The notes under the pieces were generated by a model that saw nothing but the letters and a program-made list of their open reading frames with translations, was not told where the DNA came from and ran no database searches. From Verrucomicrobiota bacterium (GTDB lineage Bacteria > Verrucomicrobiota > Verrucomicrobiia > Limisphaerales > JAKPVM01), in contig JAKPVM010000245.1 of the NCBI GenBank assembly GCA_029572555.1, forward strand, positions 1-46,687: a stretch of 46,687 nucleotides of DNA, written 5' to 3'. Within the stretch, counting starts at the first letter, position 1. Every line of letters begins with the position of its first letter. This document shows positions 1 through 5,892 of this stretch, one piece after another. The position numbers and the translations under genes were made by a program.

Positions 1-240
1 CTATAATAATGTCACCTCTTACGAGGTTCTTTTGTGATGCCAGCATTCTTGCTGGCATTTTTTAACCATCGATAGATGGTGACAGGATTATAGCATAGAA
101 ATTAACATAGAGGAAAACCCCGTTAGGGGTGACAGAGCGATAATTTAGAAATCCAATAATGGCTCTGTCACCGCTTTGGGCGGTTTATGATGTTTCGTAT
201 TTCCTTTGCTATAATAATGTCACCCGCTTTTGCGGGTTTG
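1..240. repeat. Array of five GTCA-hairpin modules (three on +, two on -), three of them with TATAAT-N3-GTCA-stem-4nt loop-stem-TT
   Basis: Read directly. + strand: TATAAT(2-7)-aat-GTCA(11-14)-CCTC/TTAC/GAGG(15-26); GTCA(167-170)-CCGC/tttgg/GCGG(171-183); TATAAT(210-215)-aat-GTCA(219-222)-CCCGC/TTTT/GCGGG(223-236). - strand: TATAAT(92-87)-cct-GTCA(83-80)-CCATC/TATC/GATGG(79-66); GTCA(133-130)-CCCC/TAAC/GGGG(129-118). Confidence 0.85.
37..63 (+). terminator. Intrinsic-terminator-like hairpin with T tract (ATGCCAGCA-TTCT-TGCTGGCAT-TTTTT)
   Basis: Perfect 9-bp stem 37-45/50-58, followed by T run through 63. Could equally be a palindromic repeat. Confidence 0.5.
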
Positions 241-317
241 GTTTATATCATTTTTACAACCCTAAAAAATAATCACATAAGATATATCAAAGGATTAAAA
301 AAGATTAAATTAACAAG

Positions 318-412
318 GATAGACAGGATGGACAGGATTTTTTACAAGATGAACAAGATACAAAAGATAAACAAGATACAATATGTTTATCCTGTATATC
401 CTGTATCTCCCT
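318..412. repeat. Degenerate short tandem repeats (gACAGGATg / ACAAGATa, then TTTATCCTGTATATCCTGTATC)
   Basis: Repeated ACAGGAT/ACAAGAT words at ~9-11 nt period, followed by their reverse complement form ATCCTGT. Confidence 0.7.
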
Positions 413-684
413 GTTAAATAAAATATCCGTGTAAATCTTATGTTTTTCTTTTGTTTCCATAAGAAAGAATCCCTGTGATAAATCCGCGTTTATTAGTGTT
501 TTAAATATTTGCGAACATTTGCGAGAAATTTTCATACTAACTATTTTCGCAGATTAACGAAGCTGTTTATATTATTGTGTCAATTCAACAAATATCCACC
601 CATATATCCAATTGTAATTTATTTGCTAATGATTGAGGGAAAAAGGGATAAAAATTTCGCAAAAGTGATTTTTAAAAATACGTT

Positions 685-707
685 AAAAAATCCCTGAAAA
701 ATCAGGG
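685..707 (-). terminator. Rho-independent terminator for the minus-strand GT2/methyltransferase pair
   Basis: Minus strand reads CCCTGA-TTTT-TCAGGG-A-TTTTTT, 3' of the CDS ending at 774. Confidence 0.7.
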
Positions 708-773
708 GGGTAAGGTTTGATTTTTATCAGTTATAGGATGATAGTGACGCGTTTTTAATTATTTATTAATGAA

Positions 774-1484
774 TTACCCAGCTTTCGCTACAGCGATTAG
801 GCTTTGACCAAATGGTGGACGCACAAAGTTATATTCCCAAGAATGCATTACTGGCAAAATATATTTATCAAAAGTTTTAACCGCGGTTGGATTAAAAGTC
901 CGTGTTTTAAACATCTTAAAAATTAGGAACCAGCTGAAATACCCAATAAAATTAAAATAATGCATCTTTACAATGTTAAAACCAGATTGATTTAATTTAC
1001 TTATTAACTCCTTGCGATTATATCTGCGATAATGACCAAAAAGCGCATCAATATCAGAATAAAGTTCTTTTCTTGCAGGCACAAACAGACACAAATTGCC
1101 ACCATTATTTTCGAGCAATTGATTGTAATATTTCAACTCATCCAAATCATCTTTAATATGTTCAAGGACATTTACACAAACAATCGCGTCCCATTGCGAG
1201 TTCAAATTAACTGATTTGATTGTTCCTCTAATTGACTCAATGTCTGGCAAAGTCTGTTTAATCTTTTTGACAAATGGTTCGTGCGGTTCAATTGTGAGAA
1301 TTCTTTTAGCATCATTTATTGTTTTTAACAACTCTGTAAATTGTCCAATGCCAGCGCCAACCTCAATAATTTCTCCTTTTAAATATGGCAAAAACTCTTT
1401 CAAAATAGCCGACCTATAATTGTTAGCATACTGCAAGTCCTCAAATTCGTAATTTTTTATAGTATTTGAATTAGATGATTCCAT
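774..1484 (-). CDS. Class I SAM-dependent methyltransferase
   Basis: Motif I EVGAGIGQFTELL, motif IV WDAIVCVNVLEHIKDD. Confidence 0.85.
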   Translation of the reverse strand: MESSNSNTIKNYEFEDLQYANNYRSAILKEFLPYLKGEIIEVGAGIGQFTELLKTINDAKRILTIEPHEPFVKKIKQTLPDIESIRGTIKSVNLNSQWDAIVCVNVLEHIKDDLDELKYYNQLLENNGGNLCLFVPARKELYSDIDALFGHYRRYNRKELISKLNQSGFNIVKMHYFNFIGYFSWFLIFKMFKTRTFNPTAVKTFDKYILPVMHSWEYNFVRPPFGQSLIAVAKAG

Positions 1485-1486
1485 TT

Positions 1487-2227
1487 CTATTTAAAGAAAT
1501 TGTATTTTAATATGCATAAGAACGCATAAACACCGTCTTTCCACCCAATTTTCTTACCTTCGTCATAAGTGCGTCCATAATAAGAAATTGGGACCTCATA
1601 AATTCTCAAATTTAATTTGCTTACTTTTGCTGTTATTTCGGGTTCAAATCCAAATCTATTTTCTTCAATTTTTATTTTGTCTAATACTTCTTTTCTGAAC
1701 AGTTTATAGCATGTCTCCATATCTGTCAGGTTCAGGTTTGTAGCCATATTTGACAGCATTGTCAGAAAATGATTACCAAGCGAATGCCAATAATACAAAA
1801 CGCGGTGAGTGCCAAAACCAAGAAATCGCGAACCATAAACCACATCAGCCTTATTCATTAAAACTGGTTTTAATAGCATATAATATTCAGTCGGGTCATA
1901 CTCAAGGTCTGCATCCTGAATTATCACATAAGGCGCAGAAACATTCATAAAACCAGTTCTTAACGCAGCGCCCTTACCTTGATTATAATCAAGTTTGAAC
2001 AACTTAATGCGCAAATCTTTTTCTGCTTTCTGGCATACAATTTCATAAGTTTTATCATTAGAACCGTCGTCCACTACGATAACTTCCATCACTGGGTGCT
2101 GTTCAAGAATCACATCTAAAATTGCAGCGATAGTGTTCTCTTCATTGTAAACAGGGACAACAACCGCAAGACACGGCGGTATATCTACGTTTGAGTTTAT
2201 AGTAATGGGACTACTGCTACTGTTCAT
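1487..2227 (-). CDS. Glycosyltransferase family 2 (dolichyl-phosphate mannosyltransferase-like)
   Basis: AVVVPVYNEENTIAAIL, EVIVVDDGSNDKT, QDADLEYDPTEY, DMETCYKLFR motifs. Confidence 0.9.
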   Translation of the reverse strand: MNSSSSPITINSNVDIPPCLAVVVPVYNEENTIAAILDVILEQHPVMEVIVVDDGSNDKTYEIVCQKAEKDLRIKLFKLDYNQGKGAALRTGFMNVSAPYVIIQDADLEYDPTEYYMLLKPVLMNKADVVYGSRFLGFGTHRVLYYWHSLGNHFLTMLSNMATNLNLTDMETCYKLFRKEVLDKIKIEENRFGFEPEITAKVSKLNLRIYEVPISYYGRTYDEGKKIGWKDGVYAFLCILKYNFFK

Positions 2228-2332
2228 TTAATCATAAACCTTTCAAAAATAAGCATTAAATTCAAGTCAGAATATCCTACGATTTTATTTTAATCTTTTA
2301 AATAGAATAGAAATAGCGTAGTAGATTGATTT

Positions 2333-3190
2333 ATGAAATCAAAAACAATTCAAGTATCCTGCGCACAAATGCACTGGGGTAAGAAACTTGAGTATAATCT
2401 TGCAAAAACGGTTGAATTTATTAAAGAGGCTGCAAAAACAGGCTCTCGTGTGATTTGTTTTCCTGAAGCAAATCTCACCGGATTCTATTTCCCGTATGTT
2501 TTAAAATATTCTATCGAATCTGTAATTTCAGCATTAGATGAAGTGTGCTCAGTTGCAAAAACTTATGATATTTGGGCAATCGTTGGCACTATCCAGAAGA
2601 CAAGAAACAAATTTTTGAACCTCGCTCATATAATATCGCCTGATGGGAAAATTGTTTATGAATATGCAAAAATCCACCTTGCTGGAAACGAAGAGAAAAA
2701 ATATTGTTGCGGTGGCAATAAACTTGCACTTTTTGAAATAGATGGGATCTGCTGTACTATGGCAATCTGCCGAGATGGAAGACACCCTGAGGTTTACAGA
2801 ATTCCGGCTATGGCTGGTGCTCAAATCCTTTTTCATCCTTCTTGCAGTTTTGATAAAATAGAAACGGTCGTCTGGAAGCGAACAAGCGGCAGAGCGCAAC
2901 TTCCAGCAGGTCCAACAACCCGAATTTTTCATTGCGTAGCAAATACAGTTGGGCAATCTCCTGACGGTCTATATACCTCAAGCGGAGCATCATTCATTCG
3001 TGACCCATCCGGATTGCCTTTAATTGAAGCAAGTCCATATCAAGAAGAATTGATAACTGCTGTTTTAAACCTCAAAAAGGCTGATTGTTCTTTTGCAATT
3101 GATAGCCTGAATGAACCGTCTTTTTTGAAACCATACTGGGAACAAATGATTTTAGAAATGAAAAAAAGAGCAAATCTAAAGCCTGAATAA
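2333..3190 (+). CDS. Carbon-nitrogen hydrolase (nitrilase superfamily)
   Basis: FPEANLTGF (Glu), AKIHLAGNEEKKY (Lys) and ICRDGRHPEVYR (Cys) form the E-K-C triad context. Confidence 0.88.
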   Translation: MKSKTIQVSCAQMHWGKKLEYNLAKTVEFIKEAAKTGSRVICFPEANLTGFYFPYVLKYSIESVISALDEVCSVAKTYDIWAIVGTIQKTRNKFLNLAHIISPDGKIVYEYAKIHLAGNEEKKYCCGGNKLALFEIDGICCTMAICRDGRHPEVYRIPAMAGAQILFHPSCSFDKIETVVWKRTSGRAQLPAGPTTRIFHCVANTVGQSPDGLYTSSGASFIRDPSGLPLIEASPYQEELITAVLNLKKADCSFAIDSLNEPSFLKPYWEQMILEMKKRANLKPE

Positions 3191-3259
3191 ATTTTCCGAT
3201 TTAAATTAATTCAAATATTGCATTTTCGTTATGGGAATTTATAATCTGATATAACAACA

Positions 3260-4363
3260 ATGTATCAAGAAGAAAAACTAAAAGAACTATCGAGTAAGTT
3301 TCAAATCTACGGGCATTTCCTTCACGCCGAACCGTGTAAAATCGGGCACATAAACGAAACTTATACCGTGACTTATAACCAGGGCGGCACTAATGTAAGA
3401 TATGTGCATCAAAAGTTAAATGTTTCGGTATTTAAGGATCCTGACGCAGTGATGGAAAACATAATGAGAATCACAACCCATATCAGGTCTAAACTTGAAT
3501 CGCAAAATGTTGATGACGTTACACGAAAAGCACTTATAGTTGTGCCGACAAGAAATAATGAACCATACTACAAGAACCATCATCAGGAGTGTTGGCGCGC
3601 TTTTGTTTTTATTGAGGACGCAGAAACATTTGAAGCCGCGCTTTATCCAAAACAAGCATATCAGGCTGGAAAGGCATTTGGGACATTTCAATCTCTTTTA
3701 AGTGATTTACCCGGAAAACGGTTAAATGAAACCATACCAGATTTTCACAACACCAGGAAAAGGTTCACGACCTTACAATCTGCAATTCAAGAAGATAGAT
3801 TTAATAGAGCAAAGTCTGCTGAAAAAGAAATTGAATTTGCGCTGAAACACGAACCAATCGTAGACGTACTTTTAAAAGCCCATTCAAACGGAAAAATTCC
3901 CGAACGGATTACCCACAATGATACAAAGTTTAATAATGTAATGCTTGATATAAAAACTGGTGAACAAATGTGTGTGGTTGACCTTGATACAGTAATGCCC
4001 GGACTTGTACTTTATGATTTCGGCGATATGGTCAGGACAACCACAAGTCCCACACTTGAAGACGAACTTGATTTGTCAAAAGTAAAGATGCGAATGCCAA
4101 TGTTCCAGTCGCTTGCTCGCGGTTATATTGAAGCTACACAATCATTCCTGACAAAGGCTGAAAAATCTTTTTTAGCCTTTTCTGGAAAATTAATAACTTT
4201 CACAATTGGAATAAGATTTTTAACAGACTATTTAATGGGGGATATTTACTTCCGCGTCCATCGCCCAAATCATAATCTTGATAGATGTCGAACACAATTT
4301 AAACTTGTTGAATCTATTGAAGAGCAAGAAGACAAAATGCAAAAATTTGTTGATAGTATATAA
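3260..4363 (+). CDS. Aminoglycoside phosphotransferase-fold sugar kinase, N-acetylhexosamine kinase (NahK)-like
   Basis: GHINETYTV, RITHNDTKFNNVMLD, MCVVDLDTVMPGLVLYDFGDMVR. Confidence 0.8.
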   Translation: MYQEEKLKELSSKFQIYGHFLHAEPCKIGHINETYTVTYNQGGTNVRYVHQKLNVSVFKDPDAVMENIMRITTHIRSKLESQNVDDVTRKALIVVPTRNNEPYYKNHHQECWRAFVFIEDAETFEAALYPKQAYQAGKAFGTFQSLLSDLPGKRLNETIPDFHNTRKRFTTLQSAIQEDRFNRAKSAEKEIEFALKHEPIVDVLLKAHSNGKIPERITHNDTKFNNVMLDIKTGEQMCVVDLDTVMPGLVLYDFGDMVRTTTSPTLEDELDLSKVKMRMPMFQSLARGYIEATQSFLTKAEKSFLAFSGKLITFTIGIRFLTDYLMGDIYFRVHRPNHNLDRCRTQFKLVESIEEQEDKMQKFVDSI

Positions 4364-4401
4364 AAAGGTTTATGACTTTTAAATCCAGTCAGAGCCAAAA
4401 A

Positions 4402-5892
4402 CTATAATTCATTTAAATAGATTTTGCCGATTTTATATCTCCTGTTGCCATCTTCGTCGTCCAATGGCAATGCAATTTTTGGTGTTCCATCGGCTAATCC
4501 GATTGAAATGAAGGCGTCATAATGTCCAGGTTTTATTGCTGGTTTAAAAACGCCCTGCTTATCCACGAATTTTCTCCCAATAACGAACTTAGAAGAAACA
4601 GTAACCGTATCATAATTGATGGCAGTTGATGATGGTTTAAGCGATGAAAAATCAAAAGAGTCGTCAACGTTAACAGAGGCTATTCCCTCTTTTTCATCCT
4701 TAAGAGTCAAAGCCAAAAATCCCCCTTTGTATAACGGGGCGACACCAGCATTAGCCCATTGAGTTTCAAAAGTAAAGGTTTCTCCAATTGCAATAGATTC
4801 TGGAATTTTTATTTGATGAAGTTGAAATCGGTAGCCGATTCTTTTATTTACATTATTGATGATTTCCCTGTTTTCATTCAAAAACTCTCTGGGCCACCAG
4901 TGGATTGACATATAACTTGCGTGGTATTCTTCAACTGCTTTCAGCAAAAGCGAACCATCACCCCACGCCCCTCGTTGTTTTGAAGCCCCATAATGTTCAT
5001 GCTCAAGTATAACGGGTAAACGAGGCCAGAATTCTTGAGCCATTTCTGAATGATACCATGAATTTGGTGGAGGTTGAACCATAATACTATCGTCACGAAG
5101 TGTCACCCCTTTTGAAAGCGCATAATCAGTAATCGGAAAATGTCTTCCCGGCTTGCTTGCTCCCGCAACATCGTCGCTAATGCATAACAATGTCTTTTTA
5201 AAATATTTTAGATGGAGGTCTATATGGGCTTTGCAGGCTTCAAAGGTCTGTTTTTCATCAAGACGGCTACCGAAACCAGTATGCCCTTCCCCCCACATTC
5301 CGAATGAGCCAATATCAATAAAAGCCACATTGGGATTTCCATCATATCTTTTTGCCATTGCGGAAATAAAATTCTCAAGTTTCTTGAGAAATACCGAGTC
5401 AAGATAATCTGGTTCCCATAACGCGCCATCCTGCGCTGGTCCTTTTCCAAAATTAAAATTCACTCCTTTGGCTCCAGCATTTTTCACCCACTCTGGTGTG
5501 GCATATCTTAACCAGCTTTCAGTGCAAGAGACCCTGATGGCTATTTGTTTGCCTTTATCAATCCAACGTTGAGATGGAGTATCGAATAACCACCAGTTAA
5601 ATTTGCCTTCCTCAGGTTCAAGAAAAGCCCACGGCACCCTTAAATAAATTACTGTTAATCCCGGAAAATCATCTAAGGTATCCGACGGTTCAAGTTTAGA
5701 ACCATAATTTTTTATAATGTTCGAATAGAAATGAAAAGTCCATCCCATACCGGGATTATTCAAAACCTTATTATTGTCCGTGAATCTTCTGATTAAGTAT
5801 TTTTGTTGAGAATCTGATGTGTATCCGATTTGTTGCCAATTGAGAGTGAATGCCCCAATCACAAACAATAATGGTAAATAATTTCTTTTCAT
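4402..5892 (-). CDS. Secreted DUF4832/DUF4874-type, glycoside-hydrolase-like protein
   Basis: NNPGMGWTFHFYSN start of mature region, TIM-barrel-like FIDIGSFGMWGEGHTG, N-terminal hydrophobic signal. Confidence 0.65.
   Translation of the reverse strand: MKRNYLPLLFVIGAFTLNWQQIGYTSDSQQKYLIRRFTDNNKVLNNPGMGWTFHFYSNIIKNYGSKLEPSDTLDDFPGLTVIYLRVPWAFLEPEEGKFNWWLFDTPSQRWIDKGKQIAIRVSCTESWLRYATPEWVKNAGAKGVNFNFGKGPAQDGALWEPDYLDSVFLKKLENFISAMAKRYDGNPNVAFIDIGSFGMWGEGHTGFGSRLDEKQTFEACKAHIDLHLKYFKKTLLCISDDVAGASKPGRHFPITDYALSKGVTLRDDSIMVQPPPNSWYHSEMAQEFWPRLPVILEHEHYGASKQRGAWGDGSLLLKAVEEYHASYMSIHWWPREFLNENREIINNVNKRIGYRFQLHQIKIPESIAIGETFTFETQWANAGVAPLYKGGFLALTLKDEKEGIASVNVDDSFDFSSLKPSSTAINYDTVTVSSKFVIGRKFVDKQGVFKPAIKPGHYDAFISIGLADGTPKIALPLDDEDGNRRYKIGKIYLNEL

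Follow-up and report, generated by a model that had tools for sequence, protein, structure and literature searches.

The window, by which we mean the whole stretch of 46,687 nucleotides that was analysed, from a Verrucomicrobiota bacterium, opens with an array of short hairpins led by GTCA. These are very probably REP-type palindromes mobilised as single-stranded DNA by a Y1 HUH transposase, of a family that would have come from outside the lineage and been amplified as a composite element. The modules are dispersed, lie outside genes, keep their stems paired as these change and, in Bacteroidota, are associated with one clade of Y1 transposases. A sequence-only reading of the array had offered a mobile palindromic (REP-like) repeat as one of two possibilities, and the dispersed extragenic copies, the paired stems and the Y1 genes beside hairpins elsewhere speak for it.

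The array at the start of the window

The first 240 bases contain five modules (Table 1). The window has five matches, compared with 0.30 expected, and none of 100 shuffles reached five. All five lie at the positions given by the sequence-only reading and in the order + - - + + that it reported. The TATAAT-N3-GTCA header that it assigned to three modules is present in modules 1, 2 and 5, and the 11-bp inverted repeat it saw at 128–138/162–172 is exact. Folded as single-stranded DNA, bases 1–240 reach -53.3 kcal/mol, as against -21.2 for shuffles (z = -8.9).

Table 1. Hairpin modules and related features in bases 1–240 of the window
Feature	Position	Strand	Header	Guide	Hairpin and stem arms	TATAAT	Remark
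Module 1 (type P)	1–28	+	CTATAAT 1–7	GTCA 11–14	14–27: ACCTC 14–18 / GAGGT 23–27	2–7	
Sixth hairpin	37–58	none			ATGCCAGCA/TGCTGGCAT		between two P modules facing each other
Module 2 (type P)	64–93	-	CTATAAT 93–87	GTCA 83–80	65–80: ACCATC 65–70 / GATGGT 75–80	87–92	
Module 3 (type Q1)	116–145	-	AATTATCGCTC 145–135	GTCA 133–130	117–130: ACCCC 117–121 / GGGGT 126–130		
Module 4 (type Q2)	155–185	+	AATAATGGCTC 155–165	GTCA 167–170	170–184: ACCGC 170–174 / GCGGT 180–184		
Module 5 (type P)	209–238	+	CTATAAT 209–215	GTCA 219–222	222–237: ACCCGC 222–227 / GCGGGT 232–237	210–215	
Composite four-hairpin element	64–238						P(-) Q1(-) Q2(+) P(+); arrangement recurs in most of 39 aligned copies

Modules 3 and 4 form a head-to-head pair within an inverted repeat (114–145/155–186), and same-strand modules start 52 bp apart. 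Since the window is the start of its contig (C114), the array is truncated by the contig edge, which cuts into module 1 at base 1; bases 1–58 represent the end of a neighbouring composite copy. They include a sixth, longer hairpin, which was absent from the earlier list of five. Its ends are reverse complements of each other, a feature shared with the REP type that PMC6006769 calls 'double foot'. An integron attC reading was dismissed, as the GTTRRRY/RYYYAAC boxes generally known for such sites are lacking in the sequence.

The array is followed, at 296–415, by a second kind of repeat made of short imperfect units (GGATAGACAGGATGGACAGGAT, two of AAGATGAACAAGATACAA, and CCTGTATATCCTGTATCTCCCTGT). 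Tracts resembling these units also trail many other copies of the composite element in the genome.

Copies across the genome

In the assembly of the window's genome (3.34 Mb, 83% complete, 356 contigs), the pattern TGTCACCN7-14GGTT has 262 matches, whereas the reversed pattern has 13; the further copies that the sequence-only reading had proposed to look for are thus there in number. A pattern combining CTATAATNNTGNCACC with the hairpin end gave 102 matches against none in the control. Within the stretches that were read, which are 84% coding, 131 of 132 modules fall outside open frames of at least 100 aa. Neighbouring genes are divergent in seven cases, tandem in four and convergent in three, so that their orientation is not uniform.

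Alignment of 39 copies on the Q2 module revealed a single composite element of the kind seen at 64–238. Its same-strand modules are about 50 bp apart, an extra hairpin often lies beyond the left P module, and across the 39 copies the outer flanks vary from one to the next. Each position has its own small set of stems: ACCCC or ACCAC at Q1, mostly ACCGC at Q2, and ACCCGC, ACCTGC or ACCTC at the right P. It follows that the composite elements pair unlike palindromes. The family accordingly has the features of REPs in the broad sense: its palindromes are short, numerous, scattered and extragenic, and their 5' foot bears a conserved tetranucleotide, which is GTCA in this genome and G/T-N-C(-A) at the transposase loci described below.

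Stem pairing and header conservation

Stem pairing was assessed on modules selected by the header, CACC and GGTT only, leaving the inner positions free. The first variable inner pair is Watson–Crick in 60 of 67 distinct inner strings, and all four pair types occur (35 C-G, 12 A-T, 7 T-A and 6 G-C). When the partner was shifted by one or two positions, 12–38 of the 67 strings were paired, and 5000 shuffles gave a mean of 25.6 and a maximum of 38. Stem covariation of the kind that had been remarked on in the array is therefore real. In the other genomes alone, 40 of 45 strings are paired, while 2000 shuffles yielded at most 36 and none reached the observed value. In the window's genome alone, within length classes, 50 of 2000 shuffles for Q modules and 319 of 2000 for P modules reached the value observed for the first inner pair; covariation is weak there because independent stems are few, and the signal comes from the other genomes and the pooled set.

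When modules at the loci of the transposase clade were chosen by their hairpin only, strong upstream conservation appeared (T-A-t-A-A-T-NN-T), fading past about -12 and ending at CTATAAT. In sister repeat families this header is replaced by CTACAAA, CTATTAAC or other forms. The CTATAAT header thus probably marks the 5' end of the element rather than a promoter.

The sequence-only reading had also considered TATAAT as a -10 box for very short hairpin RNAs. Read in this way, the modules would be tiny transcription units or terminators, with the hairpin and its T-rich tail ending the RNA. As a -10, TATAAT does agree with the sigma-70 consensus, and it frequently appears as TTTGCTATAAT; bases 1–700 hold three terminator-like sites where 0.4 are expected. 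On the other hand, no TATAAT header is part of a promoter-like hexamer pair: a search for a -35 hexamer 16–18 nt before TATAAT found none at the headers, and 5 sites overall against 3.9 expected. The replacement of the header in sister families and the limit of conservation at CTATAAT do not support the -10 proposal either, and linkage to one transposase clade would be left unexplained. Rfam models at gathering scores returned no match, nor was there a tRNA match. Moreover, the housekeeping promoter of Bacteroidota, where the module is commonest, is TTTG/TAnnTTTG and not TTGACA/TATAAT. We regard a transcriptional role of this kind as highly improbable.

Occurrence in other genomes

We scanned one genome per species with a pattern made of GCTATAATNNTGTCACC and the hairpin end. 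Among the matches listed, most records are Bacteroidota (Saprospiraceae, Chitinophagales, Cyclobacterium, Bacteroidales, Flavobacteriaceae and others), two are KSB1, and other groups have single matches that are possibly due to chance. The form CTATAAT-NN-TGTCA plus hairpin is shared between the window's genome and many Bacteroidota, whose commonest form among the matches listed is CTATAATNATGTCACCCCTTCGGGGTT, with stems that are changed yet paired. The sequence-only reading had voiced an impression that clusters of this sort are found in further environmental genomes, and the many Bacteroidota records among these matches show it to be right.

Closer to the window, the module is nearly absent: 320 other genomes of the order gave only two single matches, and 115 other genomes sampled from the phylum gave none. 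From this near-absence, the window's genome seems to be the only one in the order and phylum samples that acquired the family. Coupled with the lack of a cognate transposase (see below), this makes horizontal arrival and amplification likely. The family probably entered the genome from outside the lineage, with Bacteroidota as the probable source.

Bacteroidota have arrays of up to ten same-strand modules with a spacing of about 50–57 bp, and single modules as well. These layouts bear on the possibility that the modules are parts of a MITE of an ordinary DDE transposon, moved as double-stranded DNA, with P modules serving as terminal inverted repeats (GCTATAAT-NN-TGTCACC). Inverted P pairs do flank some stretches, for example 1–93 and 64–238 in the window, but inverted termini would give neither single modules nor same-strand arrays of up to ten. 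Paired stem changes are not needed for a double-stranded binding site, and the linked gene is a Y1_Tnp rather than a DDE gene. A MITE origin is therefore very unlikely.

Outside the GTCA modules, one strand of G013:C22 carries TGTCACCAATGCCTTTCGGCGGTT nineteen times without change at 19–5368, at intervals that are multiples of about 75 bp. The arrangement resembles a CRISPR array and has no bearing on the modules.

Linkage to one clade of Y1 transposases

Y1_Tnp genes are listed in 20 of the 23 module-bearing genomes, and in six genomes such a gene adjoined modules that the pattern had found independently. At two loci (L228 and L229) the transposase gene lies between outward-pointing hairpins, and at two others (L230 and L249) the hairpin unit extends to the transposase start codon. 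The header itself abuts the start codon at about 5130–5190 of L230 (ATTATATATGGCAGG) and in the upstream flank of L249 (ATTATGGCAGG). Through this placement the repeat may affect how its own enzyme is expressed.

Protein searches of 17 further genomes and 15 earlier ones raised the number of usable Y1 proteins to 79. Linkage was defined strictly: within 700 bp of the gene there had to be a header, a foot and a hairpin of at least 5 bp. By this definition 13 are linked and 66 unlinked, and all 13 linked proteins fall inside one clade of 17. Of the other four in that clade, L225 has the hairpins but lacks the full header, L248 has them with a shorter stem, and the last two rows are long, unreliable branches. 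In the final tree, from which nine long or off-family rows were dropped and to which two plasmid proteins were added, all 15 linked proteins form one clade (bootstrap 100, SH-aLRT 98) with 55 other Y1 proteins outside it. Nearly all of those 55 come from the same genomes as the linked ones. As the genomes were picked for carrying the module, absolute frequencies are biased, but the contrast between clades within genomes is not.

The linked proteins are about 150 aa long, match Pfam Y1_Tnp and display the motifs [DN]H[VI]H, WQ and Y---Q--HH; at the HuH motif four of them have NHVH in place of DHVH/DHIH or vary there. Against the NCBIfam IS200/IS605 transposase model (cut-off 55), L230 scores 61.6 bits and L228, just under, 52.4 bits. 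With the REP-associated model NF047646 (cut-off 80), L230 scores 20.5 bits and L228 has no match. Searching PDB sequences with one protein of the clade gave no match.

The sequence-only reading had suggested looking for a transposase in the genome. Y1 genes flanked by the same hairpins, as is typical of REPs, do exist in other genomes, in Bacteroidota. In the assembly of the window's genome, by contrast, a protein search for the clade transposase found none, the best Y1 protein being 38% identical and on a distant branch. Consequently, the family would now be either moved in trans or left over; the clade enzyme may have been lost, may be hidden in a collapsed array or may be supplied from outside. 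The genome's own Y1 genes are out as the source of the modules, given their distant branch and the other repeats around one of them. Subclass 1.2-type Y1 genes are present on its contigs C151 (L031) and C92 (L032), and both contigs may be foreign to the bin. The C151 gene is surrounded by quite different hairpins (ACCCGACCTGC..GCAGGTC and ATAGCCCG). A Y1_Tnp fragment on C42 has stops in the translated stretch and looks like the degenerate remains of a gene.

Two Y1 genes that do not belong to the clade likewise have GTCA hairpins next to them. At L209 these are GTCACCCC hairpins, mostly under a different header. On a Persicobacter plasmid (L300, 1380–1400), a TGTCACCCCTTTGGGGTGG hairpin accompanies the Y1 gene, reflecting either convergence or an older shared foot.

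In principle, slippage during replication and gene conversion could have spread the modules passively, and they would adjoin Y1 genes simply because both gather in intergenic repeats. Tandem units of about 50 bp would fit slippage, and a passive process would agree with the missing cognate transposase in the window's genome. What it fails to account for is the association with one clade among the many Y1 genes of the same genomes, the presence of copies next to unrelated genes genome-wide and the different hairpin families of other clades. We therefore deem passive spread very unlikely.

Comparison with known systems

Like the GTAG REP/BIME/REPIN elements served by TnpAREP/RAYT (PMC3733652, PMC8266576, PMC3116915), the modules are short extragenic palindromes with a 5' foot tetranucleotide, occur as singles, inverted pairs and clusters, and flank a Y1 gene. 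They differ in having the foot GTCA instead of GT[AG]G, a CTATAAT header at a fixed distance and stems of 5–6 bp. The enzymes differ too: GTAG REPs go with class 2 proteins (Y---NP), whereas the linked enzymes have Y---Q--HH. Neither foot nor enzyme thus places the family with GTAG REPs and class 2 TnpAREP.

CGTC-tagged REPs (PMC3733652) also have a non-GTAG foot, with TGTC among its variants, and are found in Bacteroidetes, mostly as head-to-head dimers. Their stems of 8–9 bp start with A-T pairs, their tail is CCA and no transposase gene is linked. In contrast, the family described here has stems of 5–6 bp with one A-T pair followed by C-G, the foot GTCA and a linked transposase. By foot, stem and tail it falls outside the CGTC-tagged REPs. 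The ends of IS608 and ISDra2 (IS200/IS605) are similar in that a Y1 transposase reads a hairpin preceded by a guide tetranucleotide on its 5' side, but here most hairpins are gene-less and numerous, and the linked genes are not seen as multiple identical copies.

Two subclasses delineated in PMC6006769, here considered as its main text presents them, come from Bacteroidetes. Subclass 2.6 (Bertels group 5) likewise has 'atypical' non-GTAG hairpins with copies elsewhere in the genome. Its enzymes, unlike the linked ones, have NH[LIV]H and YIH[QN]NP, and the distinction is drawn by these motifs. Subclass 1.2 (Quentin 2018) is defined by DH[IV]H, WQ and Y---Q--HH. The linked enzymes share its motifs, size (about 150 aa) and hosts, and belong to it as far as placement by motifs goes, as distinct from the paper's own profile. 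The same main text reports subclass 1.2 without REP association, whereas here 15 genes of one clade are linked to GTCA hairpins. GTCACCCCTTCGGGG was not found in the REP literature searched. Against this literature, including the main text of PMC6006769, the GTCA-tagged REP-type family appears to be new.

Repeats are not limited to the GTCA clade. At 27 of 72 loci encoding Y---Q--HH proteins, at least three hairpins within 1.2 kb share one 6-nt foot; the same arrangement occurs in 1 of 119 other pieces of the same genomes and in 1 of 27 from order relatives. Headers and feet at these subclass loci include CTACAAATGTG, CTACAAACCGGTAG and, on the other strand as printed, CTATTAACATGTCG. Other Y1 clades have other hairpin families. 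For example, a Y1 gene on a Bernardetia plasmid, retrieved by a protein search that ignored repeats, does not belong to the GTCA clade; TCTACAAATATTGC-GTTGC-TCT-GCAAC stands near it, and the TTGC foot recurs at L276, in the same larger group. It could be that the whole of subclass 1.2 is a REP-bearing lineage with a two-part signal, in which a CTAYAAW-type header holding the cut or target site is combined with a guide and a short hairpin. The clades would differ in the guide (GTCA, GTCG, TTGC, GTAG and others), and the repeats would cross phyla and amplify without keeping the enzyme, as in the window's genome. We give this generalisation an even chance of being correct.

Proposed mechanism

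The mobilisation of the GTCA modules as single-stranded DNA might proceed as follows. Each module has three parts: a header (CTATAAT, for which Q modules have AATAATGGCTC or AATTATCGCTC), a foot formed by the guide GTCA, and a hairpin that can vary in its letters provided that these still pair. The hairpins would form in single-stranded DNA, for instance on the lagging strand, where a Y1 HUH transposase of the IS200/IS605 superfamily would bind, cut and rejoin the palindromes. In E. coli, Stenotrophomonas and Marinomonas, the REP foot and hairpin are recognised in single-stranded DNA, which is cut at CT (or CA), and in Marinomonas changing the foot moves the cut according to cross-pairing (PMC8266576). 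By analogy with IS608 and the Marinomonas REPtron Mb, cross-pairing with GTCA would determine where the cut falls, and the cross-pairing rule predicts a TG or TA dinucleotide for it. The sharply bounded CTATAAT, as the 5' end of the unit, might provide the site of the 5' cut or the target. If new units were inserted next to headers already in place, same-strand arrays of roughly 50-bp units with one header each would result. In the window's genome, the family would have been amplified as the four-hairpin composite element.

Implications

The window's genome shows that a REP-like family can reach high copy numbers in a lineage in which the enzyme has not been detected. In addition, repeated hairpin families lie near many genes of a subclass that is said, in the main text of PMC6006769, to have none. 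REPs are among the commonest bacterial repeats, yet for many families the enzyme is unknown; the GTCA family supplies a candidate enzyme clade. Moreover, related pairs of enzyme and repeat that differ in their guides offer material for a direct test of the rule by which the guide sets the cut site.
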